NCBI RefSeq assembly: GCF_900109575.1
Contig: NZ_FOAF01000004.1
Span: 310,001-374,000 of the forward strand
DNA length: 64,000 nucleotides
Direction: 5' to 3'
From: Olivibacter domesticus
GTDB lineage: Bacteria > Bacteroidota > Bacteroidia > Sphingobacteriales > Sphingobacteriaceae
Shown here: positions 12,528 to 64,000 of the stretch, piece by piece
Layout of the letters: the number at the start of each line of letters is the position of its first letter
Position numbering within the stretch: the stretch's first letter is position 1
Position numbers and translations under genes: made by a program
The notes under the pieces: model-generated
The model's database searches: none
The model's input: the letters and a program-made list of their open reading frames with translations, nothing else
What the model was told of the DNA's origin: nothing

Positions 12528-13808
12528 CTAAAACCGTTCGGGCGCGAAAAGTGAAATATCTGCGGAAAGCTTTTGCTCATTTATAAGTTCACTTACTACC
12601 TTCCCTACTGCCGGCCCTAAACTCAATCCCATCATACCGCAACCACCCGCTACAATTAGGTTCTTTATCTTTTTGCTTTCACCTAAATAAGGTAATCCAT
12701 CGGGTGAGCATGGTCGAAACCCGAACCATACATCTCGCTTTTCAGGAATATCAACCTGTAACTCAGGATAGTATTGAGGTATTGCCTCTACAATGCCCTG
12801 CACACGATTCATATTAATATTACTATTAATGGCCGCTAATTCCATAGTACCGCCAAAACGGATATGGCCATTCATAGGTGTAACAGCAACCCTGGCTTCT
12901 AAAAGCAAGGAAGGGTGTTGCAGTGTGTGCTGGCCTGGTTTATACATAAATGAATATCCTTTACCTGGCATTAGCGGAATCTTTAGCCCGACCTTTTTTG
13001 CCAGTTCCGGCAGCCACGCGCCGCCAGTCATCACCACTTTATCGCTTTTGAAGCTTTGATTTCCAGCAATAACCTTAGCAATTTTTCCTCCCTCCACTTC
13101 AAAATCCGTCACTTTTGTATGTTCAAGGATAACCGCACCTTTTCCTTTTATGTAAGCTATCAATTGCTGCATCAGTGCCTGCGGATATAAATGTCCGTCG
13201 CAACGATAATGCACTGCTCCCAGCACATCTAGTTTTACATGCGGCTCGAGTTGCTGAACTTCGTCCTTCTTCAAAACGGCAACATCCAACCCAAGTGCCT
13301 GTGCCTGATGAGCTAAGTGGGTCTCTTCTTCCGCTGTTTTCTCACTTTTATACAGCATTAATATCCCTCTATGTAATAATTCGAAATCAAAACCTTTATC
13401 TTTTGCGATTTCGTCATATAGATTACTGCTCAACAAATTCAGGTCACGTATGGAAGGAGCGGAACGATTAACATGTTCGCTATTGGCATGCTTTACAAAT
13501 TTCAGCCCCCAGGAGATTAAATTGGCACTCAAACTTGGTTTAACATAAAATGGACTTTTACTATTAAACATCCACTTGATACCTTGTGCCACAATGCCGG
13601 GCGCAGCTAAAGGCGTAAAATGACTCGGGACAAGCATTCCCGCATTCCCATAAGAGCAATTGTCTTGTAAGTCTCCGCTATCCAGCAAGGTTACCTGCCA
13701 TCCTTCATTTAAAAGATAATAGGCAGAACATAGCCCAGCAATACCTCCACCAATGATGAGGACATTCCCTTTACTTAATTGATTGGTATCTATAGTAGTT
13801 GATGTCAT
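12528..13808 (-). CDS. FAD-dependent D-amino-acid dehydrogenase, probably cis-4-hydroxy-D-proline dehydrogenase
   Basis: DAO-family flavoprotein of 426 residues that should oxidise cis-4-hydroxy-D-proline to pyrroline-4-hydroxy-2-carboxylate, the second step of hydroxyproline breakdown. It has the N-terminal dinucleotide motif VLIIGGGIAGL (16-26), the DadA-like region YGNAGMLVPSHFTPLAAPG, and a C-terminal FAD contact GCGMMGLSLGPAVG. Length matches DadA-type enzymes. It is the last gene of the cluster, 39 bp after the epimerase gene. Substrate assignment comes from context; by sequence alone D-proline or another D-amino acid is equally possible. Confidence 0.85.
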   Translation of the reverse strand: MTSTTIDTNQLSKGNVLIIGGGIAGLCSAYYLLNEGWQVTLLDSGDLQDNCSYGNAGMLVPSHFTPLAAPGIVAQGIKWMFNSKSPFYVKPSLSANLISWGLKFVKHANSEHVNRSAPSIRDLNLLSSNLYDEIAKDKGFDFELLHRGILMLYKSEKTAEEETHLAHQAQALGLDVAVLKKDEVQQLEPHVKLDVLGAVHYRCDGHLYPQALMQQLIAYIKGKGAVILEHTKVTDFEVEGGKIAKVIAGNQSFKSDKVVMTGGAWLPELAKKVGLKIPLMPGKGYSFMYKPGQHTLQHPSLLLEARVAVTPMNGHIRFGGTMELAAINSNINMNRVQGIVEAIPQYYPELQVDIPEKRDVWFGFRPCSPDGLPYLGESKKIKNLIVAGGCGMMGLSLGPAVGKVVSELINEQKLSADISLFAPERF

Positions 13809-13847
13809 GTTAAATTAAAATTACTCAATCTTGGTAGTCAATAGCAT

Positions 13848-14846
13848 TTAAATCACCTGAAAACCAAAAGCATAAGGATCTTCATCATCAATAATGATAT
13901 GGTTATACCCCGTTATTAGTGCCCAACCCTCCACGCCTGGAATAATAGCAGGCTTACCCGCTACTTCTGTTTCTTCTTCAATTGTTCCTGTAAATTGAGA
14001 ACCTATATAGCTCTCATGAATAAATTGATCGCCTTTTTTTAGCTTTCCTTTGGCATACCACTGCGCCATCCTGGCAGAAGTGCCTGTTCCGCAAGGGGAA
14101 CGGTCAAGCGCATTTTCGCCTACCAATACAGCATTACGGCCACTCGCTTTTGGATCGATCACTTTTCCTGTCCACTGAATATGGCTCAAGCCAAAGATAT
14201 TTGAATTCTCTGGATGGATAAATTCATATTTATCATTTAGCAGCTGCCTAATGATTTTGCCATAATGGATAAGCTGACTCGCGGTAAAATCTGCGATATC
14301 TTTAAAATTCTCTTGCGGATCGATAATTCCATAAAAGTTACCGCCATAAGCAACATCAACCTTTACGGTACCTAAATCAGGGCATTCAACCTCCAGTGCT
14401 TCGGCGTAAAGAAAGGACTTTACGTTCGTAAGTTTAACAGATTTAACTTTCCTACCTTCCTGCTTATAGTCTATTAAAATTAAACCAGCAGGCGTCTCCA
14501 GTCGCAGCTTACCGGGTGTTTTTGGTTCAATCAACCCTTCCTCAATAGCCACCGTTACGGTACCGATCGTACCATGTCCGCACATTGGCAAACAACCGCT
14601 TGTTTCGATATATAAGACCCCAATATCATTTGCTGGGTCACATGGCGGGTAGAGGATGCTACCACTCATCATGTCGTGCCCCCTAGGTTCAAACATAAGG
14701 CCTTTACGGATCCAATCGTATTCTTTCATAAAATGGAGGCGGCGTTCCATCATGGAGTTCCCATTTAAAAGTGGTCCACCACCAGCAACCAAACGCACCG
14801 GACAACCGCAGGTATGGGCGTCTATACAGAAAAATGTTTTCTTCAT
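13848..14846 (-). CDS. 4-hydroxyproline 2-epimerase
   Basis: Proline racemase superfamily enzyme of 332 residues, converting trans-4-hydroxy-L-proline to cis-4-hydroxy-D-proline, the entry step of the pathway. Both catalytic Cys are present, C89 in PMCGHGTIG and C252 in RSPCGTGTSARM. Having both Cys fits an epimerase/racemase, whereas the related dehydratases replace the second with Thr. The HGT after the first Cys resembles 4-hydroxyproline epimerases rather than proline racemases. It lies between the FAD dehydrogenase and aldehyde dehydrogenase genes, all on one strand. Confidence 0.9.
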   Translation of the reverse strand: MKKTFFCIDAHTCGCPVRLVAGGGPLLNGNSMMERRLHFMKEYDWIRKGLMFEPRGHDMMSGSILYPPCDPANDIGVLYIETSGCLPMCGHGTIGTVTVAIEEGLIEPKTPGKLRLETPAGLILIDYKQEGRKVKSVKLTNVKSFLYAEALEVECPDLGTVKVDVAYGGNFYGIIDPQENFKDIADFTASQLIHYGKIIRQLLNDKYEFIHPENSNIFGLSHIQWTGKVIDPKASGRNAVLVGENALDRSPCGTGTSARMAQWYAKGKLKKGDQFIHESYIGSQFTGTIEEETEVAGKPAIIPGVEGWALITGYNHIIIDDEDPYAFGFQVI

Positions 14847-14924
14847 CTTGTGGCTATGAGTTATCGGTTTTTCAGCGTTAACTCATTTAATATTTTACTC
14901 TAACTCAATTTTAACTTTTAAGGA

Positions 14925-14956: not shown

Positions 14957-14976
14957 TAATAACGAGTAACTAGGAA

Positions 14977-16458
14977 CTAAATACTTTCTTTCGTCAATAC
15001 ATTATCTACCGTACGATAAATTCCCAAGGGATTACTGTTCTTTAATTCATCGGGTAATAAGCCATCTGGCCAATTCTGAAAAGCAATTGGGCGTAAAAAG
15101 CGCACGATAGCATCAGACCCTACAGAGGTAAAGCGGCTATCAGTTGTTGCCGGGAAAGGACCGCCATGTTGCATCGACAAACAAACTTCCACACCTGTTG
15201 GCATACCGTTGAATAATAGGCGTCCACATTTGTCTTGCAATATGTTTACTAATTCAGGTTGTTGCCTTATATCAGCTTCAGTAGCCGCTAAAGTAATGGT
15301 CAGTTGTCCTTTTAATTTCTTTGCCACCAATAACATGTCTGCAACATCATTACAACTCACGATCAGGCCAAAAGGCCCAAAAACCTCCTCCAGTAGATGT
15401 TCATTGCTAAGCAAGCCGGCAGCATCTGTTGCCGCAATTAGTGCAGCACCCTGACCCTCTATTTCTTTATTTTCAGCACTTGCCAATACAGTTACCTCCT
15501 TCTGAGACAACATTTTTTCTTTGTTAGAAGAGTAGGCATTGGCTATTCCTTTATGTAACATATTAGCGGGTAATGAACCCTGAATTATCCCTGTTAATGC
15601 CTTTTTAAAGGCATCAAGTGTTTCTCCTTTTATTGCCACCAGCACACCCGGATTAGTACAAAACTGACCCACGCCTAAAGTAAGAGATGCAGCGTATTGA
15701 GCTGCGAAGTCTTGCGGATTTGTCGCTAACTTTTCAGGAAGTGCAAACACAGGGTTTATACTTCCCATCTCGGCAAATACGGGGATAGGCTCTTCTCGTG
15801 TGTTTGCTAAATCAAATAAAGCCTTACCTCCGTGGAAAGATCCCGTGAAAGCAACCGACTTTACCAATGGATGTTTCACCAAATAGGCGCCCGCTTCGTT
15901 AGAATTTCCATAAATATGTGAAAAAATTCCTTCGGGCCATCCTTCTTCTTTTAAGGCACTTAAAATGGCGTCAGCCATTAAAGAAGAGGTTTTAAGATGC
16001 CCTGGATGCGCTTTCAGTACAACCGGGCAACCCGCAGCGATAGCGCTAGCAGTGTCTCCACCGGCGGTTGAAAAGGCAAAAGGGAAATTACTTGCACCGA
16101 AAACCACGACAGGACCAACACCCACCATCAGCTTACGAAGATCAGGCTTGGGCGGCGTTTTGTCAGGAATTGCTGTATCAATTCGTGCGGATAAACAAGC
16201 TCCGTCTTTTAGTCTATCAGCGTAACTTCTCCATTGAAAAACTGTACGTGCTTTTTCACCAACCAACCTCGCTTCGGGTAGCGAAGTTTCCTCCATTGCA
16301 GCAGTTATTAGCTCTGGGCCTAAAGACGCTATTTTATCGGCAATTGCATACATGAGTGCAGCACGGTCTTTAATCGATCTTTTTTTAAGGTATTGAAAAG
16401 CCTCGGCCGCACCATTTAACAATTCATCTACTTTATCCTGCGTTGTTTCCTTATACAT
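14977..16458 (-). CDS. Aldehyde dehydrogenase, probably 2-oxoglutarate semialdehyde dehydrogenase
   Basis: A 493-residue ALDH expected to oxidise 2-oxoglutarate semialdehyde (2,5-dioxopentanoate) to 2-oxoglutarate with NAD(P), the last step of hydroxyproline catabolism. It shows FGASNFPFAFS with the oxyanion Asn, general base E230 in VFAEMGSINP, and nucleophile C267 in GVGQFCTNPG. The FCTNPG context is typical of the KGSADH subgroup. It lies 84 bp after the DapA-family gene. The same activity also serves oxidative L-arabinose, xylarate or glucarate pathways, but the neighbours here point to hydroxyproline. Confidence 0.9.
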   Translation of the reverse strand: MYKETTQDKVDELLNGAAEAFQYLKKRSIKDRAALMYAIADKIASLGPELITAAMEETSLPEARLVGEKARTVFQWRSYADRLKDGACLSARIDTAIPDKTPPKPDLRKLMVGVGPVVVFGASNFPFAFSTAGGDTASAIAAGCPVVLKAHPGHLKTSSLMADAILSALKEEGWPEGIFSHIYGNSNEAGAYLVKHPLVKSVAFTGSFHGGKALFDLANTREEPIPVFAEMGSINPVFALPEKLATNPQDFAAQYAASLTLGVGQFCTNPGVLVAIKGETLDAFKKALTGIIQGSLPANMLHKGIANAYSSNKEKMLSQKEVTVLASAENKEIEGQGAALIAATDAAGLLSNEHLLEEVFGPFGLIVSCNDVADMLLVAKKLKGQLTITLAATEADIRQQPELVNILQDKCGRLLFNGMPTGVEVCLSMQHGGPFPATTDSRFTSVGSDAIVRFLRPIAFQNWPDGLLPDELKNSNPLGIYRTVDNVLTKESI

Positions 16459-16542: not shown

Positions 16543-17454
16543 TTAAACGTTAACGGAAAGTTGCGGTCTATTCGCCTTGCTCGCTTCGATCACATTCAAT
16601 ACGCGTTCACGTTCTTCTCCTATTAGCGTAAGTCGGGGTGCCCTTACATATTCATTGCTTATTCCTTCGCTAACGGCAGCCAATTTAATATATTGTACTA
16701 ATTTTGGATGGATGTCTAGCTCCAACAACGGCATGAACCATCTATAGATTTTAATAGCTTCTTCATAATTACCTGATTTGACATAATTATAAATGGCAAC
16801 CGTTTCTCTTGGGTATGCATCTACCAAACCTGCAACTAAACCATCGGCACCAATCATAAGGGATTCTAAAGAAATCGGGTCAACACCACCTAATACTTTA
16901 AAGCGATCACCGAATCGATTGATCATTCGTGTAATATTTGTTAGATCTCTGCTCGATTCTTTTACCGCTTGAATGTTTGGCAATAGTGCTAACTCTTCAA
17001 ACATCTCTACTGTGACAAAAATACCATAATCTACTGGATTATTATAAATCATGATTGGTAGCGAGGTACTCTTCGCGACTGACTTAAAGAATTCCACCGT
17101 TTCTCTACTATCAGCTTTATAACGCATTGGAGGCAATAACATAAGTCCGTCTGCACCTAATTCTTCTGCTTTTTTTGCAATTGCAATCGCTTCTCTCGTT
17201 CCTTGTTCAGCGATATTTAATACGACAGGATAGTCATTCCCAACAGTTGTTTTCGTAAATTTGAGTAATTCAAATTTTTCTTCAGTGCTTAACGTGCTCG
17301 CTTCTCCAAGTGATCCTGCTAAAATCAATCCATGCACTCCCGCATCTAATTGGGCTGTAAGATTTTTACTAAACATGTCATAATCAATTGTTCCATCCTC
17401 TTTAAAGGGAGTCAACAATGCCGGATAAATTCCTTTCCAAAGTTCTTTACTCAT
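16543..17454 (-). CDS. DapA-family lyase, probably pyrroline-4-hydroxy-2-carboxylate deaminase
   Basis: TIM-barrel aldolase-class enzyme of 303 residues. It has the family motif GSLGEASTLS (47-56), Tyr137 in MIYNNP and Schiff-base Lys165 in IQAVKESS. In this cluster it should hydrolytically deaminate pyrroline-4-hydroxy-2-carboxylate to 2-oxoglutarate semialdehyde and ammonia. A biosynthetic dihydrodipicolinate synthase is unlikely because its immediate neighbours are all hydroxyproline-pathway genes. It follows the AraC regulator gene by 91 bp. Confidence 0.88.
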   Translation of the reverse strand: MSKELWKGIYPALLTPFKEDGTIDYDMFSKNLTAQLDAGVHGLILAGSLGEASTLSTEEKFELLKFTKTTVGNDYPVVLNIAEQGTREAIAIAKKAEELGADGLMLLPPMRYKADSRETVEFFKSVAKSTSLPIMIYNNPVDYGIFVTVEMFEELALLPNIQAVKESSRDLTNITRMINRFGDRFKVLGGVDPISLESLMIGADGLVAGLVDAYPRETVAIYNYVKSGNYEEAIKIYRWFMPLLELDIHPKLVQYIKLAAVSEGISNEYVRAPRLTLIGEERERVLNVIEASKANRPQLSVNV

Positions 17455-17545: not shown

Positions 17546-18421
17546 TTAGTGAACATTTTTATGGAAGCTTATCATAAATTCTTTCGGAGAATTTCCTATG
17601 ACACTTTTAAACACTCTATTAAAGTTTGTGATGCTGTTAAAACCACAATTATAAGCTACGGCAGATATACTTTCACATTTCTGGTGAGTCAGTTTTTTAC
17701 AGGCCTCATGCACGCGCATTTCATTTAAAAAGGCCACAAACGTGTTTCCGGTATGCTTCTTAAAATAACGGCAAAATGCCTGGGGAGTTAAATTCGCTTG
17801 ATCAGCAACCTCTTCCAGGGTAATGGCCTTGGTAAAATTTTGAGAAATAAAGTTATAAATAGACCCTATACGGATTCCTTCATTTTCGGAAATAGCATTT
17901 GTCCCACCCGACAGCGCTGGTACATTTTTTGACACGATACTTAATGTACGCAACAGATAGAAAAAATGCATTAATTGATCCATCTGATTCGCCTCTTTTA
18001 AACGAACGATTCGCCTATAAACCTCTCTGAAATGGTCCGTAGGCACCTTAAAGCCATTAGTATGATCTTTCACAAAAGTTTGCAACATATAAAGTTCAGG
18101 AAGATTGAAAAAAGATGCTAAATTACCATTCGGATTAAAAAATACGGAAACGGAACGCACTTGTTTCGGGTTAGCATCATCAAAATAATCAGCATTGCTT
18201 TTAAAGACATGAGATTGATTTGCTCCTAATAAAAAAATGTCATTTTCCTGAAAAGGATGCATACTATTATCTGCTATTAAGGTGCCTTTTCCTTCCACAA
18301 TCCACATCAATTGAGCTTCATGATGTCGATGTAAATACGGATAAAAGTGGGGCATGCAATCTTCCTGAACTATTACTGTTCGATCATGCGCAACCGGAAT
18401 TGTAAATTGTAGTGTCTTCAT
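17546..18421 (-). CDS. AraC-family transcriptional regulator of the hydroxyproline cluster
   Basis: A 291-residue regulator with an N-terminal cupin-like sensing domain (about 25-110, with HRHHEAQLMWIVEGKGTLI) and a C-terminal AraC double helix-turn-helix (about 190-291, ending with GFNSITNFNRVFKSVIGNSPKEF). It is the first gene of the leftward cluster and is divergent from the Xaa-Pro aminopeptidase gene, so it could control both sides from the shared 514-bp region. The likely effector is hydroxyproline or a pathway intermediate; this is inferred from position only. Confidence 0.9.
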   Translation of the reverse strand: MKTLQFTIPVAHDRTVIVQEDCMPHFYPYLHRHHEAQLMWIVEGKGTLIADNSMHPFQENDIFLLGANQSHVFKSNADYFDDANPKQVRSVSVFFNPNGNLASFFNLPELYMLQTFVKDHTNGFKVPTDHFREVYRRIVRLKEANQMDQLMHFFYLLRTLSIVSKNVPALSGGTNAISENEGIRIGSIYNFISQNFTKAITLEEVADQANLTPQAFCRYFKKHTGNTFVAFLNEMRVHEACKKLTHQKCESISAVAYNCGFNSITNFNRVFKSVIGNSPKEFMISFHKNVH

Positions 18422-18935: not shown

Positions 18936-20330
18936 ATGTTTCACTCGAGTACTTATATTGATCGTCGTAAGCAGTTAAAAACAACTATCTCAAAAGGAAT
19001 TTTATTGTTTATTGGAAATAATGAGAGCCCCATGAATTATGCAGATAATGCTTTTCCTTTTCGACAGGACAGTTCTTTTTTATATTATTTTGGTATTCAA
19101 GAGCCAAAACTTGCAGCCGTCATTGACCTTGATGAAAATAAGGATATTTTGTTTGGTGACGAGTTAACCATTGATGAAATTGTATGGATGGGTCGACAGG
19201 AAACACTCCAGGAAAAATGTAGAAAGGTAGGCATTGAGGATATACAACCTTCTTCACAATTAGCACCCTATCTACAAAAAGCATTACGGCAACAAAGAGT
19301 TATTCATTTCCTTCCTCCGTATCAGTCAGAGAATAAATTAAAACTCATCGACCTGTTAGGTCTTAGTCTGAAAGAATTAGCTAGCCAGGCATCTGCACCC
19401 TTTATCCAAGCGGTAGTAGCACAACGTTCGGTAAAAAGTCAGGAAGAGGTTACGCAAATTGAAACAGCGGTAAATACATCCGTTGATATGCATCTGTTAG
19501 CCATGCGATTGGCAAAAGCAGGAACGACAGAATTGCAAGTAGCGAATGCTATACAAGAAATGGCTCAAAATGCCGGAGGTCGTTTAGCTTATCCAACCAT
19601 TTTATCTGTGCATGGTGAAATATTGCATAATCATAAGCACTTGAACACGTTGAGAGATGGTCAGTTAGTATTAAACGATTCAGGTGCGGAAACCGCCATG
19701 GGTTATGCCGGAGATCTCACCAGAACGTTTCCTGTAGGCAAGACGTTCACAAATAAACAAAAAGAGATTTATAACATCGTACTAGAAGCGCTACAGCAAT
19801 CATCCGCATTACTTGCTCCTAGTGTTCGTTATTTAGACGTTCACTTCAAAGCTTGTAGCACCTTAGTAGAAGGACTAAAATCTATTGGACTCATGAAAGG
19901 CAATACCGAAGAGGCGGTAGCTTTAGGTGCTCATACATTATTTTTTCAATGCGGCACGGGACATATGATGGGGCTCGATGTACATGATATGGAGGACCTT
20001 GGAGAACAATATGTAGGTTATACCGAAACATTGAAGAAAGATACCACCACCTTTGGCCTTAAATCTCTTCGTCTGGGAAAAGAATTGGCCGCAGGTTATG
20101 TGCTAACTGTAGAACCCGGTATTTATTTTATTCCCGAATTATTTTCTCGCTGGAAAGCAGAAAATAAGTTAAAGGATTTTATTAATTACAATGAAGTTGA
20201 AAAATACCTTAGTTTTGGAGGAGTACGTATAGAAGACAATTATCTTGTCACAGATACGGGATACAAAAAGCTAGGGAAAGAATTAGCTAAAACAATAGAG
20301 GAAGTAGAGGAGATTAGAAAAGACATATAA
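18936..20330 (+). CDS. pepP: Xaa-Pro aminopeptidase (M24B)
   Basis: A 464-residue dinuclear metallopeptidase that removes the N-terminal residue preceding proline. The N-terminal creatinase-like domain spans about 1-160 and the pita-bread catalytic domain about 165-450. All five metal ligands are seen: D248 in LNDSGAE, D260 in AGDLTRTF, H343 in GTGHMMGLDVHD, E393 in TVEPGIYF and E433 in VRIEDNY. There is no signal peptide, so it acts in the cytoplasm on imported peptides. It is 10 bp upstream of the DPP-IV gene and divergent from the hydroxyproline cluster, which suits joint use of proline/hydroxyproline-rich peptides. Confidence 0.95.
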   Translation: MFHSSTYIDRRKQLKTTISKGILLFIGNNESPMNYADNAFPFRQDSSFLYYFGIQEPKLAAVIDLDENKDILFGDELTIDEIVWMGRQETLQEKCRKVGIEDIQPSSQLAPYLQKALRQQRVIHFLPPYQSENKLKLIDLLGLSLKELASQASAPFIQAVVAQRSVKSQEEVTQIETAVNTSVDMHLLAMRLAKAGTTELQVANAIQEMAQNAGGRLAYPTILSVHGEILHNHKHLNTLRDGQLVLNDSGAETAMGYAGDLTRTFPVGKTFTNKQKEIYNIVLEALQQSSALLAPSVRYLDVHFKACSTLVEGLKSIGLMKGNTEEAVALGAHTLFFQCGTGHMMGLDVHDMEDLGEQYVGYTETLKKDTTTFGLKSLRLGKELAAGYVLTVEPGIYFIPELFSRWKAENKLKDFINYNEVEKYLSFGGVRIEDNYLVTDTGYKKLGKELAKTIEEVEEIRKDI

Positions 20331-26552: not shown

Positions 26553-26606
26553 TTCTTTCAAATAGAAAACGCCAAACCTCTTGATTTGGCGCTAAAAAAT
26601 GAATAA

Positions 26607-28001: not shown

Positions 28002-28011
28002 TTTTTTACGA

Positions 28012-40544: not shown

Positions 40545-40572
40545 TTTCAATATTTTATTTTAACATCCCTTA

Positions 40573-43776: not shown

Positions 43777-44109
43777 ATAAATTTAAGTTATAGTTATACA
43801 TCTTGTGGATTACACAAAAGTTAGATCTCGTAGTGATTTCCTCGGTTCTGATAAATAAATAATTGGCTAGTGTTAGTATAAATGTCAATTAAACATTTAA
43901 TATTCAAATGTAGAATGAAAAGAGAGTCTCTGCTCTCCGGATTTTAACAAGAACGCTTCGAAATTTAACCAGTTTGACGGAAGCTTACTAGTTATCAAGA
44001 GATTGGCTAATATCTACGAAGTTTAAGTGAATAAATAGCTGCTTTGAGGATTAGATATCTCTTATTTTTGTTTTTATGGATTCCTATAAACCCTATTATA
44101 AAATCAATT
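43777..44109. other. Divergent regulatory region between SusC and GH127 genes
   Basis: No gene is visible. On the minus strand a -7-like TACATTTG lies at 43912-43905, 129 bp before the SusC start, without a clear -33. GTTAAAAT lies at 43948-43941 on the minus strand, and a short GAGAG/CTCTC palindrome lies near 43921-43937. No convincing promoter for the GH127 gene was found. Confidence 0.35.
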
Positions 44110-46798: not shown

Positions 46799-46870
46799 AC
46801 ATCACAAATGTAGTTAAGACATTTAAGCTAATTTACGCAAATATTAACGACTTATCATCGAATATGAATC

Positions 46871-49677: not shown

Positions 49678-49801
49678 AGGAAAGGATTTTATTTCAGTAT
49701 TATACAAATGTATAAAAGACACTTATTTTCAAGAAGGCAGATTTGAATGAATGTTACTCTTATTTTAACACTGTGATCAAATGAATTTCGCCCGGATAAA
49801 C

Positions 49802-55537: not shown

Positions 55538-57481
55538 TCAGAATATCATAATAAAACCACCTTTGTTCTGTAAAGAAATAGGCACCTTATTTGAGGCCCT
55601 TATTGTCTCCCTACGGAAGGCAGCGGTATCGTTTCCCTCGGTAATCAATTCCCCTTCTTTTCCTTCAAGAAAGCTTAGATCCAATTGCAGTTTTTTCTCT
55701 GTTTCTTCCCCATTTATACCTGCAACATACCAATGTGCTCCCGACTTCCGAGCTATTACGTTGAATTTTCCAGGATAACCATCTATAAACTTCACATCCT
55801 CCCAGTAATTGGGTAGCGTACGAAGAAAATCTTGCACATCACTCGGTACATGCTTCATCCCTTCAGGAGATTCGGCATAGTGCTGTATACCCGATAGAAA
55901 TAATACACTGGTAGCTAATTCAAAAGCTGCCGTCGTTTTTCGTTTTACATTTGTTTGTATTTTATGTAGGTTCATCGGTGTGAAATCCATCGGATCAAAG
56001 GCATTTCTGGTAAAGGGGAGCATCGCAGCATGCGTAGCCTCCTTGTTGGCATCCTCTTGCCCAAAGGTAATCATTTCAAAACCTCTTACTGCTTCTGCAG
56101 TCATAAGTTGTGGATAAGTTCTTGACCAGCCGCGAGGTAGCGTAGCCCCATGAAAATTAACCAGTAAATGGTAGTCGGCGGCATCATCCAAAATGTCCTG
56201 ATAGTATTTTATTACCGACCTTCCATCGCCACCAAAAAAATCAACCTTAATGCCTTTAATACCCATCTGTTTTAACTTCTCAAACTCTTTTACCCTGTCT
56301 TCTTTGGTAAGCAGTTTATTTTTAGGGGTATATTTAACGGTGTTCCAATTACCTGCAGAATTATACCATAAAATGATTCCAACCTTCTTTTGTTCAGCGT
56401 ATTTAGCCAATTCTGCAATTTTTTCATAGCCTATTTTTTCATCCCAATTCACATCGATAAGACAATATTGCCAATGCATATCTGCTGCAAAATCAATGTA
56501 TTTTTTTTGCTCATCGTAGGTAATGAAATCGTCTTTAGAGTTAATCCAACTCCAAGAAGCCTTACCTGGTTTAATAAAAGATTGGTCGACCTTTTTGGCA
56601 GGAGCAGCAACATCAGTGCCCAGCGTAGATTCAGCAATTGTAGCGAGATTACCTACGGTAATTACACGCCAAGGAGAATAAAAGGGGGTGTTTGAACGAG
56701 GTAAAATACCGCTCGTTTCTATTTCCTCTTTTGGATCAGGAAAGGCAATGTGGTATACACCTCCTGGAGATTGCGCACTCAAACGTGTGGCGCAATATTG
56801 ACTATCCAGAGCGGCTTCTGTTATTAATAACCATCGATCCCCTGTTTTGAATAACGCCGGATATACCCAGCCAGTTCCAGTACTTTCTGTCGTACCCACT
56901 GGAATTTCCTGTTGATAATGTTCTTCATAAGAAGGATTAGTATGTTCCCAACCTGATTTTGCAACGGCTGCCGGTTGTAACCAAGCTTTTGAATCGTTGG
57001 GTAAACGATAGGTCGTTACTTCTTTTGTAATAGTTGCCTGTTTATCTATGTCGGGAAAAAAATAACGAAAAGCCAAGCCATCGTTGGACAGATGGAAGAT
57101 AACATCCAATTTACGGCCTTCAGGATTTTGAAATTTCAGTATAAGTTTATTTGCTTCATAGTGATTATGTTGACGTTTTGCGTTAAGCGTTTCATAATCA
57201 TCTGTGATGCGCTCACTGGACGACTCAGAAATAAGCTCCAGATCTTCGGCAAGATTGGCGTCTTCAAAAATCACCCCCAAAAGGGAACTATCTAACACGG
57301 TCGTATCTTTTTGGGTTAACCGATACCAAGCTTGGCCTGCGTTGTCGACCCCATAATATAAAGCAATACTTCCATCTGGACTTTCCAACTTTTGTATTGA
57401 AGTTGTCTTACAACTTAATCCTCCAATAAGTATTGGAAGAAAACATACAAGCAACTTTCCTATTTTAAACAAGTATTTCAT
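55538..57481 (-). CDS. GH97 glycosidase, retaining (alpha-galactosidase-like) type
   Basis: A 647-residue lipoprotein (lipobox Cys24 in LIGGLSCKTT). The N-terminal beta-sandwich spans about 30-290, the TIM barrel about 300-560, and a C-terminal beta domain follows. Asp414 in GIKVDFFGGDG corresponds in position and context to the nucleophile Asp of retaining GH97 alpha-galactosidases; Glu463 in MTAEAVRGFE matches the acid/base. Inverting SusB-type alpha-glucosidases lack this Asp. Alpha-galactoside or beta-L-arabinopyranoside cleavage is therefore most likely. It is the last gene of the right-hand arabinose locus, 230 bp after the aldose epimerase gene; that gap shows no supported gene. Confidence 0.9.
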   Translation of the reverse strand: MKYLFKIGKLLVCFLPILIGGLSCKTTSIQKLESPDGSIALYYGVDNAGQAWYRLTQKDTTVLDSSLLGVIFEDANLAEDLELISESSSERITDDYETLNAKRQHNHYEANKLILKFQNPEGRKLDVIFHLSNDGLAFRYFFPDIDKQATITKEVTTYRLPNDSKAWLQPAAVAKSGWEHTNPSYEEHYQQEIPVGTTESTGTGWVYPALFKTGDRWLLITEAALDSQYCATRLSAQSPGGVYHIAFPDPKEEIETSGILPRSNTPFYSPWRVITVGNLATIAESTLGTDVAAPAKKVDQSFIKPGKASWSWINSKDDFITYDEQKKYIDFAADMHWQYCLIDVNWDEKIGYEKIAELAKYAEQKKVGIILWYNSAGNWNTVKYTPKNKLLTKEDRVKEFEKLKQMGIKGIKVDFFGGDGRSVIKYYQDILDDAADYHLLVNFHGATLPRGWSRTYPQLMTAEAVRGFEMITFGQEDANKEATHAAMLPFTRNAFDPMDFTPMNLHKIQTNVKRKTTAAFELATSVLFLSGIQHYAESPEGMKHVPSDVQDFLRTLPNYWEDVKFIDGYPGKFNVIARKSGAHWYVAGINGEETEKKLQLDLSFLEGKEGELITEGNDTAAFRRETIRASNKVPISLQNKGGFIMIF

Positions 57482-57711: not shown

Positions 57712-58863
57712 TTATTTTACCAAAAACTTGTACACGGTTTTTGTTTTATAGGTGTCGCTTGGTTTTAAAACGGTTGATGGAAATGTCGGTTGATTGGGAG
57801 AATCCGGAAAATGTTGAGTTTCTAAACAAAATGCCGACCGGTGGCCATAGTCTTTGCCCCCCTTTCCAATATTTTTTCCCCCTTCCATAAAGTTGCCACT
57901 ATAAAACTGTATACCCGGCTCTTCTGTAAGCACATCCATTTGTATTCCTGTTTTTGGACTGTAGACAACTGCCGCACTTTGTAATCCCTCTTTTTTGTTC
58001 AACACAAAATTGTGGTCATAACCTTTTCCTCTTTTCAGTTGTTGATCATCTGCCTCAATACGTGCACCTATCACTGTTGCTTTCCTAAAGTCAAATGGTG
58101 TTTTAGTCACATCCAACAAATCGCCCGTAGGGATAAGTGTTTCATCTACAGGCGTAATTTCATTTGCATGGATCGTTAATTCATGATCTAAAATGGTAGC
58201 ATCTCCTTCACCATTTAAGTTGAAGTAAGCATGATTAGTTAAGTTTAAAACTGTTTCTTTATCCGTTGTAGCAGTATAGTCTATCGCTAACTCATTATCA
58301 TCTGTTAAAGTATAGGTAACTGCGATCGCTACATTTCCCGGATAACCTGCTTCTCCATCTGGAGAATGATAAGTAAGCTTCAATGTTTTATCGTTCACTT
58401 GCTTGGCATCCCAAACCTTATCATAAATCCCGTTATTACCACCATGCAAAGAATTTTCACCATCATTTTGTTCTAACTGGTACGTTTTACCATCTAATGT
58501 AAATTTGCCCTTTGCAATACGGTTGCCATAACGGCCTACAATAGCTCCAAAATAGGATGTTTTATTTTCCTTGTAAGTTTGCGCATTGTCATAACCTAAT
58601 ACCACATCAGTAAGTTTACCTTCTTTATTGGGAACTAGTAGACTAACCAAGCGTGCACCATAATTCGTGATGCTAGCTTTGGCATTTTTATTATTAGTTA
58701 ACGTATAGAGGTTTACTTCTTTGCCCTCTATTTTCGAGTTGAAGCTTATGCTCGAATCCTGCGAGATCGTATCTGCTGTCTCAGTTGATTTTTGTCCACT
58801 TTGATTGCACGCACTCTGTAAAACAATGGCTACTATGGTGCCAGTATAAATTATTTTCTTCAT
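57712..58863 (-). CDS. galM: Aldose 1-epimerase, lipoprotein form
   Basis: A 383-residue mutarotase that interconverts alpha and beta anomers of hexoses, and often of arabinose. A lipobox-like VLQSACNQSG places it in the envelope. Conserved regions are FGAIVGRYGNRIAKG, the catalytic His in NLTNHAYFNL and the Glu near the C-terminus in FCLETQHFPDSPN. It lies 18 bp after the GH43 gene in the arabinose locus, where it would equilibrate sugars released by the retaining and inverting glycosidases. Confidence 0.95.
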   Translation of the reverse strand: MKKIIYTGTIVAIVLQSACNQSGQKSTETADTISQDSSISFNSKIEGKEVNLYTLTNNKNAKASITNYGARLVSLLVPNKEGKLTDVVLGYDNAQTYKENKTSYFGAIVGRYGNRIAKGKFTLDGKTYQLEQNDGENSLHGGNNGIYDKVWDAKQVNDKTLKLTYHSPDGEAGYPGNVAIAVTYTLTDDNELAIDYTATTDKETVLNLTNHAYFNLNGEGDATILDHELTIHANEITPVDETLIPTGDLLDVTKTPFDFRKATVIGARIEADDQQLKRGKGYDHNFVLNKKEGLQSAAVVYSPKTGIQMDVLTEEPGIQFYSGNFMEGGKNIGKGGKDYGHRSAFCLETQHFPDSPNQPTFPSTVLKPSDTYKTKTVYKFLVK

Positions 58864-58881: not shown

Positions 58882-59904
58882 CTAATTATCTTCTTTCATT
58901 ATGACAGGCCAATTTTGGTCATTCCAAGTTAGTTTTTCTATTCTTAATTTTGGTTTTCCATCATCGAGCGCATCATAGCCATGGAATATTAAGTAACTTT
59001 TTCCTATCGAATTCACTACGGCATTATGTCCTACGCCATGCCAATTATCATCTCCTTCGAGAAGCATTTTACCTCCTCCTGTCGCAAGGGATTTGCCTTC
59101 TTCATCTAAATAAGGCCCTGTCAGCTGTTTTGCTCTACCCACAATTATTTTATAGGTACTTGCTATACCTTTGCAGCAATAATCGATAGAAGCAAAAAGG
59201 TAATAATATTTGCCTTTTTTAAAAATAAAGGGTGCTTCAATCGCATTACCTCCGGCATCAACTGGATTGTTATCAACAGCAGGTGGATTTGGTGATTTGG
59301 CATCTTCTTTCCTGCTAGCAATCGTTGGTATACTGGAAAGATCATCTGCTATTTTTAGTCCATCCTGACTAAGTTTCACCAGCTTGATTCCGTCCCAAAA
59401 AGATCCAAAAACCAGATAAGGAACACCCTTCTCATCCGTTATCAGGTTTGGATCAATAGCATTCCAATTGGTTTCCCCGGGGATTGACTGTATAATTTTA
59501 CCATGATCAGTCCACTTAAAGCGAGGGTCTTGCGGATCTAGTGTTGGATTGGTTACCAAACCTATACAAGAAGTGTTTTTACCAAAGGCAGAAACGCTAT
59601 AATAAAGATAGTATAAGCCGTTAAAGTGACTAATATCGGGTGCCCAGATATGTCCTTTAAAAGAGGGAACTGCCGCCACAGCCCATTTCGGAGGTGTTTC
59701 AAAAACAGGGAGCTCGCTCTTCCAGGATTTCATATCGGATGAAGACCATACAGAAATGCCATTTCCTGTGGCAAATACATAATATTTGCCATGTGAATGG
59801 ATCATCACCGGATCATGGGCTACCACCTGTCCTAGCTGTTGGCCAAATAAATGACCCCACCATCCAGTTAGTAACGCAAATACCAGCACATTGATCCTTC
59901 CCAT
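58882..59904 (-). CDS. GH43 arabinan endo-1,5-alpha-L-arabinosidase-like
   Basis: A 340-residue secreted GH43 of the single-domain arabinanase type. The signal peptide is about 1-22. The catalytic triad is Asp31 (VVAHDPVMI), Asp151 (WNAIDPNLI) and Glu223 (NAIEAPFIF). Conserved HIWAPDISHFNGLYYLYYSVSAFG and FGSFWDGIKL are typical of endo-arabinanases. Its start lies 3 bp after the upstream GH51 stop. It should cut alpha-1,5-linked arabinan; exo-acting arabinosidase activity is an alternative. Confidence 0.92.
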   Translation of the reverse strand: MGRINVLVFALLTGWWGHLFGQQLGQVVAHDPVMIHSHGKYYVFATGNGISVWSSSDMKSWKSELPVFETPPKWAVAAVPSFKGHIWAPDISHFNGLYYLYYSVSAFGKNTSCIGLVTNPTLDPQDPRFKWTDHGKIIQSIPGETNWNAIDPNLITDEKGVPYLVFGSFWDGIKLVKLSQDGLKIADDLSSIPTIASRKEDAKSPNPPAVDNNPVDAGGNAIEAPFIFKKGKYYYLFASIDYCCKGIASTYKIIVGRAKQLTGPYLDEEGKSLATGGGKMLLEGDDNWHGVGHNAVVNSIGKSYLIFHGYDALDDGKPKLRIEKLTWNDQNWPVIMKEDN

Positions 59905-59907: not shown

Positions 59908-61878
59908 TTATTGCATTTTTATTTTAACAACATGAAACGAATAAGGTACTAAACTGATATTTAATTTTTTACCCTCAATTGCAATCGGCCTTGTTTGCGG
60001 ACTTACCTGATCGGGTTGATCGATTGTATTTATTGCATTTAGATTTGTTGCGGTCAAAAAGGTATGACTTCCATTGCTCGCTAATTTTCCTTTTACCTGA
60101 ATGTTAAACATTCCTTCTACAGGTTGGGCATTATGATTAACAATTTTGACGATAATTTCCTTTTGATTGTGATCAATAACGGCCGAGGCATACAGACTAT
60201 CTCGGCCGCTGACCAATTGGCCGTCTGAAAGGATAGGAATAACATCTGTCCCTTTATTGGTAGCATAGAGCTTTTGCACCTGATAATTAGGTGTTCCATA
60301 GGCGTGAAGATTATTTACCCAAATCAGATCCGGAGCCCATTGCCAACCATCAACATGTGCAAATAGGGGGGCATAAGATGCCATCTCTACCACATCAGCA
60401 TTGCGCTCAAGGCCTGTTAAAAAAGCAGCTTCCGCTATTGCTGCCGACCAGTTATTTTCTGATGGGCCATCCTCCACTTGTTTAGGATGACCTGCATATT
60501 CTCCGGCGAAAATCTTTGAACCATTGCGGTCATAGCTATCATATCTGCTTGTATTAGAAAGAAACCATTCTGGGCTACGATAATAATGTTCATCGATAAA
60601 ATCGACCTTCATTGCTCTAAGTCTTTGGTTTAAGAAATCAAAACGTTCCCCATCAGGATCAGTTCCTGAACTAGCCACAATTTTTATGTTAGGGTACCTA
60701 TCATTAAGCGCCTTTTTAAAAATCTCGAGTCGTTCTATATACTGGGGGCCCCAGTTTTCATTCCCCACACCCAACATTTTTAAATTGAAGGGATTAGGAT
60801 GTCCCATACTAGCTCTCAATTTGCCCCATTTTGTGGTCACATCGCCATTTGCAAACTCGATAAGATCCAGCGCATCTTGCACATATTCATCGAGCTCATC
60901 TATCGGAACGAGTTCTGCAGTATTGAACTGACAAGCCATACCACAATTTAAAATAGGCAGTGGTTCTGCTCCAATATCCTCTGCTAACTGAAAATACTCA
61001 AAGAAACCAAGTCCAAATGTCTGATAATAATCAGGAGCGGGACGATGCTTAAATTCTGTATTCCATCGGTTGATTATAAGTTGACGATCCTCAATAGGGC
61101 CTACTGTCTTCTTCCACTGAAATCGCGTTGCAAGCTCACGCCCTTCCACTATACATCCACCTGGGAAACGGATAAAGCCTGGTTTCATATCCGCCAGTAG
61201 CTGTACCATATCAGCACGTAGCCCCCCAGGGCGTTTTTTCCAAGTATCTTCCGGGAACAACGAGATCATATCTAGATCAATGATCCCCTTACCTTCAAAC
61301 CAAATATTCAATTTTGCTTTTAACTCCGTTTGCGTTGCATGAAAGCTGACTTGCTGTTTTTTCCAAGTATTTTGCTCTCCATCCGGAGAAAATTCTCCCT
61401 TTCCAATAATAGTTCCAGTGGTATCTACCAGCTCAATATGAAGCTTTACTCCCGGTTTTATTTGACGATAGAAAACGCTGAAATCATATCTTAACCCTTG
61501 TTTGATGCCCATTCCTCTAAAACCTTCATTCTGAAGTCCAAGCTTCTCGGCTCCAGTTAGTCTATTTATTCTTAAAAACCGTGGGTTATTTGTCTTCTCT
61601 TTTTGATTTAGCACTAAAAAAGTTCCTTCGGGGGCAGTCTCACCTATTTTTTTCCACCCCATAAGCGGTTGCGCAAACTCAAAAGATCTATTTTTTATAA
61701 GTTCCGCGTAAATTCCACCATCTGCTCCGAGATTAATGTCTTCAAAAAACACGCCCCACATATTAGGAGATACCTTTGCCGTTGGTTTATCAGCCTGTAT
61801 ACTAAATGTTTTTTTTACCTGAGCGTTTAAGCTTAGTGTAAAGGCTACTATGAGCGCCACTAATACATTTCTTTTCAT
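59908..61878 (-). CDS. GH51 alpha-L-arabinofuranosidase, long form
   Basis: A 656-residue exported enzyme. After the signal peptide (1-20) comes an N-terminal stretch with a CBM4_9-like insertion (about 65-215), then the TIM barrel and a C-terminal beta domain. The acid/base is Glu374 in GVGNENWG and the nucleophile Glu460 in FAGEYAGH. It removes terminal alpha-L-arabinofuranose. It lies between the other GH51 gene (22-bp gap) and the GH43 gene (3-bp gap), clearly in one operon. Confidence 0.94.
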   Translation of the reverse strand: MKRNVLVALIVAFTLSLNAQVKKTFSIQADKPTAKVSPNMWGVFFEDINLGADGGIYAELIKNRSFEFAQPLMGWKKIGETAPEGTFLVLNQKEKTNNPRFLRINRLTGAEKLGLQNEGFRGMGIKQGLRYDFSVFYRQIKPGVKLHIELVDTTGTIIGKGEFSPDGEQNTWKKQQVSFHATQTELKAKLNIWFEGKGIIDLDMISLFPEDTWKKRPGGLRADMVQLLADMKPGFIRFPGGCIVEGRELATRFQWKKTVGPIEDRQLIINRWNTEFKHRPAPDYYQTFGLGFFEYFQLAEDIGAEPLPILNCGMACQFNTAELVPIDELDEYVQDALDLIEFANGDVTTKWGKLRASMGHPNPFNLKMLGVGNENWGPQYIERLEIFKKALNDRYPNIKIVASSGTDPDGERFDFLNQRLRAMKVDFIDEHYYRSPEWFLSNTSRYDSYDRNGSKIFAGEYAGHPKQVEDGPSENNWSAAIAEAAFLTGLERNADVVEMASYAPLFAHVDGWQWAPDLIWVNNLHAYGTPNYQVQKLYATNKGTDVIPILSDGQLVSGRDSLYASAVIDHNQKEIIVKIVNHNAQPVEGMFNIQVKGKLASNGSHTFLTATNLNAINTIDQPDQVSPQTRPIAIEGKKLNISLVPYSFHVVKIKMQ

Positions 61879-61900
61879 AAATATGAGTTTGAAAGGTACG

Positions 61901-63445
61901 CTAATTTAATTCCAAAACAACCACCGAAAAAGGAGGTAGCTTTAAGGCAATCTGATTATTCTTAATTTGAGCCTCATTAAATACTGCTGGTTTTATATTA
62001 GCCGGATTGTCAAAAGAGTTAAAGTCTCTTAGTTTTTTCGACGTAAGCAAGCGTCCATTAATTGATTTATATTTTTTATCTGCAACATCTACCGTTATAG
62101 CTTGTTCCTTTGTAGGATCAATATTAACCAAAGAAATGTGCGTTTTACCATCTTTTGCAATAGAGGCAGAAGCGGTTACGGCCGGTATTTTCTCTCCATT
62201 GAACACGAAGTCAGCACTATTTAACTGTATTGGAATTAAAGTAGCATCTTGATGAACCTTATACATTTCCATGACATGATAAGTAGGTGTTAACAGCATT
62301 TTATTACCTTCAGTTAAAATAACTGCCTGCAATACGTTAACCGTCTGTGCTAAATTTGCCATCCGCACGCGTTCAGCATGATTATTAAAAATATTCAAGG
62401 TCATACCCGCAATCATGGCATCACGCATAGTGTTTTGCTGATATAAGAAACCGGGATTGGTTCCTGGCTCCACCTCATACCAACCACCCCATTCGTCTAC
62501 CACCAGGGCTATTTCCTTAGCCGGATCGTACTTATCCATAATAGCTGAATGTTTCTCCACTAACTCATTCATTAGCCATGCTGATTTCATTGTCTTAAAA
62601 TACTGTTCATCCGTATACATAGTAGAAGGCCCTTTCTTCTTCCATTCAATAACCGCATAGTGATGTAAAGCAATCCCCTTCACCAAATTTTTTGGTATTT
62701 TTTTCATAAGGGTTTCGGTCCAGTTATAATCGGCCCCATTTGCTCCTGAAGCAATACGGAAAAGTCCGCCAGTATTTGTCCAATCAGACATGAAAGTAGC
62801 ATACTTACGATATACATCGGCATAATAATCAGGCGTCATATTTCCGCCACATCCCCATGCCTCATTTCCTACGCCCCAAAATTTCACATTCCATGGTTTT
62901 TCGCGGCCATTTTCTCTACGTAGATCAGACATAGGGCTTTTACCACCAAAGTTTACATATTGTACCCAATCAGACAATTCCTGTACCTCGCCACTCCCTA
63001 CATTTCCAGCCAAGTACGGTTCGGTTCCCAATAATTCGCACATGTTAAGAAAATCATGCGTCCCGAAACTATTATTTTCTGTTACTCCTCCCCACCACGT
63101 GTTAACAATGCTGGGTCTTTTACCTTTAGGGCCAATACCATCTTTCCAATGATAGGTGTCTGCGAAACACCCTCCAGGCCATCTTAAGTTGGGGATATTT
63201 AAATTTTTAAGCGCGTCAATCACGTCGTTCCGTACACCATTGGTATGTGGGATCGTTGTATTCTCTTCACCTACATATATCCCATCGTAAATACAACGAC
63301 CTAAATGTTCTGCAAAATGACCATAAATATGTTTATTGATAGTTACGGTATCTTTTCCTGGAGTGAATGTTACCACATTCTGTGCCCAAACGTTACAAAA
63401 AGAGACAAGTACGGTTAGGGTTGCAATAATTGATCTTCTATTCAT
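61901..63445 (-). CDS. GH51 alpha-L-arabinofuranosidase, short form
   Basis: A 514-residue exported enzyme; I chose the ATG at 63445, which opens the signal peptide (about 1-22, ending VWAQ), over a frame start 14 codons upstream. It has FAEHLGRCIYDGIYVG and NLRWPGGCFADTYHW, the acid/base Glu195 in GVGNEAWG and the nucleophile Glu318 in VVDEWGGWY. It resembles the intracellular AbfA type but carries an export signal. It is 117 bp after the SusD gene at the right edge. Confidence 0.94.
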   Translation of the reverse strand: MNRRSIIATLTVLVSFCNVWAQNVVTFTPGKDTVTINKHIYGHFAEHLGRCIYDGIYVGEENTTIPHTNGVRNDVIDALKNLNIPNLRWPGGCFADTYHWKDGIGPKGKRPSIVNTWWGGVTENNSFGTHDFLNMCELLGTEPYLAGNVGSGEVQELSDWVQYVNFGGKSPMSDLRRENGREKPWNVKFWGVGNEAWGCGGNMTPDYYADVYRKYATFMSDWTNTGGLFRIASGANGADYNWTETLMKKIPKNLVKGIALHHYAVIEWKKKGPSTMYTDEQYFKTMKSAWLMNELVEKHSAIMDKYDPAKEIALVVDEWGGWYEVEPGTNPGFLYQQNTMRDAMIAGMTLNIFNNHAERVRMANLAQTVNVLQAVILTEGNKMLLTPTYHVMEMYKVHQDATLIPIQLNSADFVFNGEKIPAVTASASIAKDGKTHISLVNIDPTKEQAITVDVADKKYKSINGRLLTSKKLRDFNSFDNPANIKPAVFNEAQIKNNQIALKLPPFSVVVLELN

Positions 63446-63562
63446 GAGTTTATTAATAGTTGGTATATAATAATAATTGGCTAACACTTGCTAAAGATAT
63501 TAAATTAATTAATAAATGTAAAAACAACATTTAAAATTTATAAATCATCGCGCTTACTTTCC

Positions 63563-64000
63563 TTAATTAGCTGCATTCGGTAATAGATTTTTATTTATAT
63601 CTAATTCGCGTTGCGGAATTGGCAGATATTCTTTTCCAGGACGCCAGGTAGTAAAATCTGCATCGTGTTCTTTTAAAATTTGTAATTTCTCTGAGTTATA
63701 CAACCATCCCCATCGGATAATGTCATTGATGCGAATGCCTTCGATAGCGAGTTCCAAATATCTTTCATGTGCTAGTTGATCACGCATTTGCTCTTGCGTC
63801 ATATTTGGTTTTACAGTAGCAAGGTCGGGTAGTTTAGCACGGGTTCTCACTTGTTGTATATAAGTATATGCCTGCGTAGTTTGCCCAAGTTCATTTAACG
63901 CTTCAGCATACATAAGCAATACATCTGCATATCTCAGTATGCGATAATTAATACCTGAATTTTCAACACCATTGTTTTCATTCGTATATCCTGGAATCCC
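63563..64000 (-). CDS. SusD/RagB-family lipoprotein, C-terminal part (N-terminus beyond the window)
   Basis: The frame is open to the right edge, giving 145 codons plus stop. It shows the SusD motif NYRILRYADVLLMYAEALNELG, split here only by the annotation limit (ILRYADVL then MYAEALNELG), followed by ERYLELAIEGIRINDIIRWG and the C-terminal EYLPIPQRELDINKNLLPN. This is the usual RagB C-terminus. It precedes the GH51 gene on the same strand, so its SusC partner should lie beyond 64000. It marks the right-hand genes as a classical polysaccharide utilisation locus for arabinose-containing glycans. Confidence 0.93.
   Translation of the reverse strand, partial: GIPGYTNENNGVENSGINYRILRYADVLLMYAEALNELGQTTQAYTYIQQVRTRAKLPDLATVKPNMTQEQMRDQLAHERYLELAIEGIRINDIIRWGWLYNSEKLQILKEHDADFTTWRPGKEYLPIPQRELDINKNLLPNAAN

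Follow-up and report, generated by a model that had tools for sequence, protein, structure and literature searches.

A candidate Bacteroidota locus for the utilization of extensin-type hydroxyproline-rich glycoproteins, with a DUF5695 protein predicted to fold like PL27 lyases

Introduction

The locus considered here lies in a 64,000-nucleotide stretch of the genome of Olivibacter domesticus, a soil-type bacterium (G000:C9:310001-374000 of 6.78 Mb; referred to as the window), and combines genes for the catabolism of trans-4-hydroxyproline (Hyp) with glycosidases, peptidases and importers. Several described systems resemble parts of it, and statements on them refer to the portions of the cited papers that were available. 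The HypBA1/HypBA2/HypAA system of Bifidobacterium longum and Xanthomonas euvesicatoria likewise has GH127 and GH43 enzymes, which act on extensin-type Hyp arabinosides, and uses GH121 as well (PMC6085000, PMC7263609). A prolyl oligopeptidase pseudogene adjoins xehypAA in Xanthomonas, and the available portions of these papers mention no Hyp catabolic genes. Unlike this system, the window joins Hyp catabolism, SusCD import, peptidases, a DUF5695 protein and an α-galactosidase-type gene, and no GH121 domain was found among its proteins scanned with Pfam.

The bacterial trans-4-Hyp pathway has been described with the same four enzymes as those of the window (eLife 2014, PMC4113996). In the main text of this genome-neighbourhood study, as available, the terms 'glycosid', 'arabinos' and 'extensin' do not occur. 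The AraR regulon of Bacteroides thetaiotaomicron (PMC4666351) shares with the window region AraR, the arabinose genes, SusCD, arabinanase/arabinofuranosidase genes and a 6-N7-6 operator. Unlike in that regulon, the sites in the window also precede the SusCD/GH127 and DUF5695 genes, in a block with the Hyp operon. An in-silico prediction of extensin use by Latescibacteria (PMC4454575) likewise took GH127 to indicate that extensin is used; in the available portion it is based on the presence of genes and describes no Hyp locus.

Extensin carries chains of β-arabinofuranose (β-Araf) on Hyp, a terminal α-Araf, and α-galactose on Ser (PMC7933510). The initial annotation of the window, made from its sequence, had proposed that the locus may consume this glycoprotein, and knew of no described bacterial locus that unites glycan removal, peptide cleavage and Hyp catabolism. 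We also found none in the open-licence literature searched, as far as its texts were available, nor a description there of any locus with Hyp catabolic and β-arabinofuranosidase genes, and the feeding system appears not to have been described previously. Hyp-rich glycoproteins (HRGPs) make up a major class of proteins in plant walls, and their recycling by soil and marine bacteria is poorly described. The locus probably serves the utilization of Hyp-rich glycoproteins of plant or algal walls that carry Hyp-O-arabinosides, the extensin type being the most likely. This reading draws on the recurrence of β- and α-arabinofuranosidases, α-galactosidase types, peptidases, and Hyp and arabinose catabolism, which are the classes that extensin needs. 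If it is true, a locus joining deglycosylation, proteolysis, and Hyp and arabinose catabolism would be the glycoprotein counterpart of polysaccharide utilization loci.

The hydroxyproline operon

The gene classes of the window were checked by Pfam, NCBIfam and PDB searches. All of those named in the initial annotation (GH127, GH51, GH43, GH97, proline-type peptidases and importers) are present by Pfam, and the complete trans-4-Hyp pathway that it reported is borne out at the level of families. In this pathway, an epimerase, a D-Hyp dehydrogenase, a deaminase and a semialdehyde dehydrogenase convert Hyp to 2-oxoglutarate. The Hyp block (12528-18421, minus strand) contains these four enzymes and an AraC regulator.

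The trans-4-hydroxy-L-proline 2-epimerase (step 1; 13848..14846, minus strand) matches the equivalog NF010578 with 581 bits, over the cut-off of 376, and contains Cys89 and Cys252, which we take to be its catalytic residues. The other three enzymes, all on the minus strand, owe their putative substrate roles to the operon context. They are a FAD-dependent dehydrogenase (DAO; 12528..13808; Pfam DAO, E 4.5e-70), the likely D-Hyp dehydrogenase of step 2; a DHDPS-family enzyme (16543..17454; Pfam DHDPS, E 6e-60), the likely pyrroline-4-hydroxy-2-carboxylate deaminase of step 3; and an aldehyde dehydrogenase (14977..16458; Pfam Aldedh), the likely 2-oxoglutarate semialdehyde dehydrogenase of step 4. 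An equivalog epimerase in one operon with these three enzymes identifies a trans-4-Hyp catabolic operon. The AraC-type protein (17546..18421, minus strand; Pfam HTH_18) is its putative regulator.

The same set surrounds the epimerase in relatives. Within 10 kb on each side of the epimerase in 84 genomes of the family (see below; some neighbourhoods are cut by contig ends), DAO and DHDPS genes are found in 84/84 each, the aldehyde dehydrogenase in 80/84, and the AraC regulator in 75/84. An ornithine cyclodeaminase/mu-crystallin-type gene is located near DUF5695 or the Hyp operon in nine loci (L174:12768-13760 and eight more), and is perhaps concerned with pyrroline-2-carboxylate from other hydroxyprolines.

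Linkage in related genomes

The linkage was examined in 201 family genomes, an even sample of a larger group, with thresholds of E <= 1e-70 for the epimerase and E <= 1e-190 for relatives of GH127. Random-placement expectations assume a genome of 5 Mb. The statistics treat genomes as independent and kinship inflates the counts, so that linkage in other families weighs more.

The epimerase is present in 84 of the 201 genomes. DUF5695 has 62 genes in 61 genomes, 59 of which also have the epimerase; 47 of 60 DUF5695 genes are within 40 kb of it, where about one is expected at random, and 40 are within 15 kb. There are 41 GH127 relatives in 34 genomes (27 with the epimerase). Epimerase genomes hold 34 of these genes, and for 16 of them the epimerase is no more than 40 kb away (about 0.5 expected). 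GH146, first met as a second GH127-like protein and recognized because it matches 5opj (E 4e-156), occurs in 27 genomes, 25 with the epimerase, and is within 15 kb of it in 17 of these 25 (about 0.15 expected). At least one of DUF5695, GH127 and GH146 is found within 40 kb of the epimerase in 62 of the 84 epimerase genomes and in 7 of the 10 genera that carry it. Linkage in these relatives is well above random placement, with the caveat that the genomes are related. Besides the epimerase, four proteins (DUF5695, GH146, GH127 and GH27) were searched genome-wide, and DUF5695 is the one most strongly linked to Hyp genes.

The neighbourhoods of the 84 epimerases contain DUF5695 in 37 cases, M24 and S9 peptidases in 34 each, DUF885b in 33, APC in 31, M1 in 30, GH146 in 18, DPP-IV in 14 and GH127 in 12. 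A LamG-bearing GH146-like type, which shares 35% identity with the GH146 of locus L134 across 615 residues, is found in six. The Hyp operon itself opens with GH127 in ten genomes, all from Mucilaginibacter (g15: G115, G164, G072, G018, G063, G167, G185, G094, G100 and G039). In five of the ten, a GH27 α-galactosidase-type gene (Pfam was run on two of the five) stands between GH127 and the Hyp genes. A further GH27 gene, in G088, adjoins GH127 away from the epimerase.

In a sample of 395 genomes of the phylum, DUF5695 was found in 14 and the epimerase, over its cut-off, in 77. Ten of the DUF5695 genomes are outside the family of the window, and in four of these (G220, G397, G416 and G536, all of genus g29) the epimerase lies no more than 20 kb away. 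A wider view was given by 80 named DUF5695 loci, kept from 474 relatives as Bacteroidota by title or by genus, and fetched with up to 10 kb on each side. Hyp genes are present in 43 of these loci (the epimerase in 31), GH127 or a GH146-like gene in 53, and both kinds in 34. An α-galactosidase-family gene is found in 26, araA, araB or araR in 15, and an M1, M24 or S9 peptidase in 53, or 66 if DUF885 is counted. The α-galactosidase type varies: besides GH27 in five genomes, there are GH36 in ten named loci and a GH97 type in nine, the latter close to the solved α-galactosidase 3a24 (one member tested). Such enzymes would suit the α-galactose on Ser of extensin.

Hyp genes, GH127 or a GH146-like gene, and an ara gene are joined in 12 of the 80 loci (araA or araB in nine, araR only in three). 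Eleven of the twelve are from Muricauda, Allomuricauda or Flagellimonas, and one is from a metagenome-assembled genome (MAG). Allomuricauda and Flagellimonas belong to the Flavobacteriaceae, as presumably does Muricauda. In Muricauda sp. CP2A (L141), 22.5 kb contain AraC, DHDPS, the epimerase, DAO, S9, GH146-like, DUF5695, AraR, GH51, GH127, araB, araD, araA and GalM, with no aldehyde dehydrogenase. A locus from an Allomuricauda MAG (L152) adds DUF885 and GH43, its aldehyde dehydrogenase and araA being cut by the ends of the stretch; the GH127 of its kin L136 is 49% identical to that of the window. The order in a Flavobacterium (L129) is DAO-APC-S9-GH146-like-DUF885-DUF5695-GH42-GH43-M24-GH36. 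These Flavobacteriaceae loci have largely the gene set of the window, in another family. A DUF6055 gene recurs beside loci of the present kind (L192:8416-9765 and 11 more).

The closest named relatives of the window are Olivibacter jilunii (G001) and Olivibacter sp. XZL3 (G003), of the family Sphingobacteriaceae. In G001 the series from the Hyp operon to GH51 has the same order, with 67-93% identity, and araR and araBDA-like open reading frames (ORFs) beyond it. Most of the block is kept in G003 and part of it in G004, and in G002 it is in pieces.

Structure prediction for the DUF5695 protein

The DUF5695 protein (46927..49722, minus strand; PF18951, 1342 bits; start probably 45 bases into the ORF) had not been singled out in the initial annotation. 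A search with the single sequence found no solved relative. An AlphaFold2 model, computed with 49 sequences (mean pLDDT 85.3, pTM 0.87), has a β-sandwich, a helical part at residues ~477-806, and then a β domain. The best Foldseek matches of the model are the PL27 structures 5nok (E 2e-25) and 5no8 (E 4e-25), and the next match is at E 3e-6. The TM scores for 5nok/5no8 are 0.76/0.75 by target length and 0.56/0.55 by query. A profile search gave 5no8 and 5nok as its sole matches, with E 4e-10. The fold predicted for DUF5695 resembles that of PL27 lyases.

The PL27 L-rhamnose-α-1,4-D-glucuronate lyase BACCELL_00875 frees rhamnose from gum arabic by β-elimination (PMC8377490). Like the DUF5695 model, it has a β-sandwich and a helical barrel, and the two proteins share an R-x-Y-N-Y stretch. 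Unlike this enzyme, DUF5695 belongs to a separate Pfam family and has a Hyp-linked genomic context, and the identity in the structural alignment is 14-15%. This context is a strong lead for its function. In the open-licence literature searched, DUF5695 is named only in work on fungal velvet regulators.

Two copies of DUF5695 are split in two (G149:C29:60110-62777 and G056:C11:285209-287254). Three of the four pieces contain stop codons, and the copies are apparently decaying. G056 has no match to the epimerase. A second, distant DUF5695 protein (L163:13379-16096), about 21% identical to that of the window and followed by a GH97-like ORF, suggests a broader family.

Glycosidases of the window

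The GH127 β-L-arabinofuranosidase (44044..46527, plus strand; PF07944, E 6e-110) carries an F5/8 (CBM32-type) domain. It contains the ETC and CACC motifs, whose residues we take to be catalytic, in keeping with the zinc/cysteine active site of this family. Its best solved match is 6ex6 (E 3e-213), presumably BT3674. An assignment as an aceric acid hydrolase (BT1003-type GH127) was rejected, with 503 bits for NF049879 against a cut-off of 950.

The other glycosidases are on the minus strand. A large α-arabinofuranosidase-like GH43 protein with F5/8C and LamG domains (31233..34685; Pfam) is nearest to 5msx (E 3e-55), which we take to be BT3662. The GH97 protein (55538..57481; Pfam) has a GIKVDFF stretch, which presumably marks the retaining type, and may be an α-galactosidase or a β-L-arabinopyranosidase. 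Its nearest solved relative is 5xfm (E 1e-139), in our understanding a β-L-arabinopyranosidase/α-galactosidase, followed by 3a24 and 5e1q at E about 1e-41. An AbnA-like GH43 endo-1,5-arabinanase (58882..59904; 4kcb, E 1e-102; 294 bits for NF053747, below the cut-off of 480) and two GH51-type α-L-arabinofuranosidases (59908..63487; Pfam Alpha-L-AF_C) complete the set.

AraR-type operators

Alignments of upstream regions gave a palindrome common to SusC/GH127 and GH51. Five sites with its exact form, AAATGT-N7-ACATTT, lie in a region of 122,460 bases that contains the window, and two of the five had given the pattern; 60 first-order Markov sequences had a mean of 0.03 and at most one. One exact site is between SusC and GH127 (43880..43898; also exact in G001, and with one mismatch in G003), a second is upstream of the GH51 genes (63514..63532; exact in G001 and G003), and another is between SusC and AraR. 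A site with one mismatch precedes DUF5695 (49706..49724) and is found in four of the five Olivibacter genomes (the window, G001, G003 and G004), with none found in G002. Exact sites were also seen at 46806-46824, between the convergent GH127 and DUF5695 genes and with no obvious gene downstream, and left of the window (L222:5079-8213), followed by a 332-residue ORF and then a GH43-like ORF.

The protein encoded beside araBDA matches the solved AraR 5bs6 (E 3.5e-64). The site bound in vitro by the B. thetaiotaomicron AraR is AAGTGT-N7-ACACTT (PMC4666351), and the window palindrome has the same 6-N7-6 layout. Judged from the letters of the DNA, the AraR homologue and the operator-like sites would constitute an AraR regulon. 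Among the loci examined, 8 of 15 GH51b genes have such a site in front, with at most one mismatch.

No clear operator common to the Hyp operon and GH127 was found. An AraR-like site with two mismatches is located at 17473-17491, 19 bases before the DHDPS gene, and G001 has a one-mismatch site at the matching place. It is a possible regulatory bridge to the Hyp operon; such sites are rare before the AraC regulators of the operon (2/102) and the DHDPS genes (2/112) of relatives.

Arabinogalactan protein and chance neighbours as alternatives

A number of results weigh against an extensin-degrading locus. To begin with the enzymes, the nearest solved relatives of GH97, GH127 and the large GH43 have no known role on extensin. 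BT3674, presumably the nearest to GH127, is reported to help degrade larch arabinogalactan (PMC10850190), and BT3662, presumably the nearest to GH43, is reported to have activity on rhamnogalacturonan II (PMC8939339). Arabinogalactan is the substrate of the nearest solved relatives of both GH127 and DUF5695, and GH42 recurs (in 12 of the 80 named loci, also in Flavobacterium), which makes arabinogalactan protein the main rival target. GH127, GH97 and the PL27-like DUF5695 would trim type II arabinogalactan, and the peptidases and Hyp genes would consume the core. The match of GH97 to 5xfm is in keeping with this, as are the likeness of DUF5695 to the gum arabic lyase and one GH2 β-galactosidase-type ORF among the 60 unassigned ORFs of the 43 Hyp-bearing named loci. 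We consider this target unlikely. The Pfam scan of window proteins gave no GH16, GH30, GH35, GH78, GH79 or GH105 domain, nor are these six families among the 25 of 72 families listed for the 60 unassigned ORFs, and GH127/GH146 with an α-galactosidase and no galactanases better fits extensin. The recurring gene classes support the extensin reading of the initial annotation, and extensin is the more probable of the two targets.

The linkage has exceptions too. Neither DUF5695 nor GH127 nor GH146 is within 40 kb of the epimerase in 22 of the 84 family genomes, and 18 of the 34 GH127 genes in epimerase genomes are not within this distance. Outside the family, six of the ten DUF5695 genomes are unlinked: the epimerase is elsewhere in G315 and G331, and has no match in G338, G413, G421 and G475. 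No Hyp, β-arabinofuranosidase or α-galactosidase gene is found in 13 of the 80 named loci. GH27, considered as a constant partner, was rejected, as 5 of its 22 relatives in epimerase genomes are linked. In G001 and G003, which have the longest conserved blocks, GH127 has no counterpart at the matching place, and is therefore a variable member of the Olivibacter block; G003 lacks matches to the TonB receptor and the AbnA-type GH43 as well, and has a 53% identical GH127 on another contig. The comparison of gene order that the initial annotation had proposed supports its reading: Hyp, GH127/GH146 and arabinose blocks stand together in many relatives, all three in the 12 named loci, with the exceptions just given.

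These exceptions bear on a further alternative, that two or three ordinary loci are chance neighbours, one for the use of Hyp and peptides (collagen, proline-rich peptides) and an AraR-controlled one for pectic arabinan. The genes are in separate transcription units, with AraR-type sites on the arabinose side and an AraC regulator on the Hyp side. The end of the window with the AbnA-like GH43 and two GH51 enzymes looks like an ordinary pectic arabinan locus, and these enzymes probably also serve arabinan. Peptidases adjoin Hyp genes with none of DUF5695, GH127 and GH146 nearby, for example in G195. AraR-type sites (up to one mismatch) are found before 1 of 27 GH127 genes, that of the window, and 7 of 127 DUF5695 genes, four of these seven entries being from three Olivibacter genomes, and before none of 85 GH146-type, 81 DUF885b and 57 APC genes. 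Arabinose control of GH127 and DUF5695 is therefore not general. Chance proximity nevertheless seems improbable, as Flavobacteriaceae have the combination in one contiguous stretch that includes AraR, and GH127 or GH146 is in or beside the Hyp operons of many genomes. Collagen is not favoured as a target, given that GH127, GH146, GH51 and α-galactosidase-type genes recur with Hyp genes, and we know of no role for β-arabinofuranosidases in collagen. Our confidence in an extensin-type substrate is slightly lowered, in favour of the two alternatives, by the genomes of other families in which DUF5695 is unlinked and by how thin the evidence for AraR is among relatives.

Proposed utilization pathway

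From the gene content, conserved linkage, operator-like sites and predicted fold, we infer the substrates, the order of the steps and the regulation as follows. The SusCD pairs would import glycopeptides. GH43 and GH51 would take off α-Araf, GH127 (in relatives also GH146) would take β-L-Araf off Hyp, and GH97 (in relatives GH27 or GH36) would take α-galactose off Ser. DUF5695 may act on a further HRGP linkage. The bared Pro/Hyp peptides would be trimmed by the DPP-IV/S9, M1, DUF885 and M24 peptidases, with POT and APC carriers taking up small peptides and Hyp. Free Hyp would be converted by the four enzymes of the operon to 2-oxoglutarate, and arabinose would enter araBDA just outside the window. 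Free arabinose would also relieve the AraR repressor, which may control SusCD/GH127, GH51, and in Olivibacter DUF5695 as well.

With some reservation, we lean towards a wider proposal. A widespread, unnamed class of Bacteroidota loci would eat whole extensin-type Hyp-glycoproteins, in its fullest form with Hyp and arabinose catabolism, and DUF5695 would found a new enzyme family, related to PL27 and acting on a Hyp-linked glycan or another HRGP-specific bond.

Peptidases, importers and neighbouring genes

An M24 Xaa-Pro aminopeptidase (18936..20330; Pfam AMP_N, M24), an S9-family DPP-IV (20341..22530; Pfam DPPIV_N, Peptidase_S9) and an M1 aminopeptidase (22724..24394; Pfam Peptidase_M1) follow the Hyp operon on the plus strand. 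An S9 dipeptidyl-peptidase-like protein is encoded on the minus strand (49802..52159; Pfam), its true start being probably near 52051. Two DUF885 proteins (minus strand; Pfam DUF885), with HELIAGH (24804..26561) and HELIPGHH (53504..55288) motifs, are candidate metallopeptidases; we take DUF885 to be a possible peptidase family.

The importers include a SusD-like_2/SusC pair (26607..31011, minus strand; Pfam), a putative glycopeptide importer of a type that adjoins the Hyp operon also in G017, G135, G154, G173 and L175, and a SusD/SusC pair with an AraR-type operator in front (39093..43776, minus strand; Pfam). A TonB receptor (35047-37470), a POT peptide:H+ symporter (37483..38970, minus strand; TIGR00924, 317 bits, cut-off 130) and an APC amino-acid permease (52048..53517, minus strand; Pfam) are also present. 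An aldose 1-epimerase (57712..58863, minus strand; Pfam) lies between GH97 and the AbnA-like GH43.

At the right end of the window is part of a SusD-like gene (63563..64000, minus strand), with a weak match to NF033071 (42 bits, far below the cut-off). The block extends beyond this edge to about 64001-75200 in window coordinates (L221), with the rest of the SusCD pair, AraR, AraB, AraD, AraA and a sodium symporter. The window holds two SusCD pairs and a third spans its right edge; together with the carbohydrate-active enzymes, they give the block the make-up of a SusCD-type polysaccharide utilization locus. Left of the Hyp operon, a hybrid two-component sensor is encoded at 6489-10547; G001 and G003 also have a relative on that side, with 62-63% identity.

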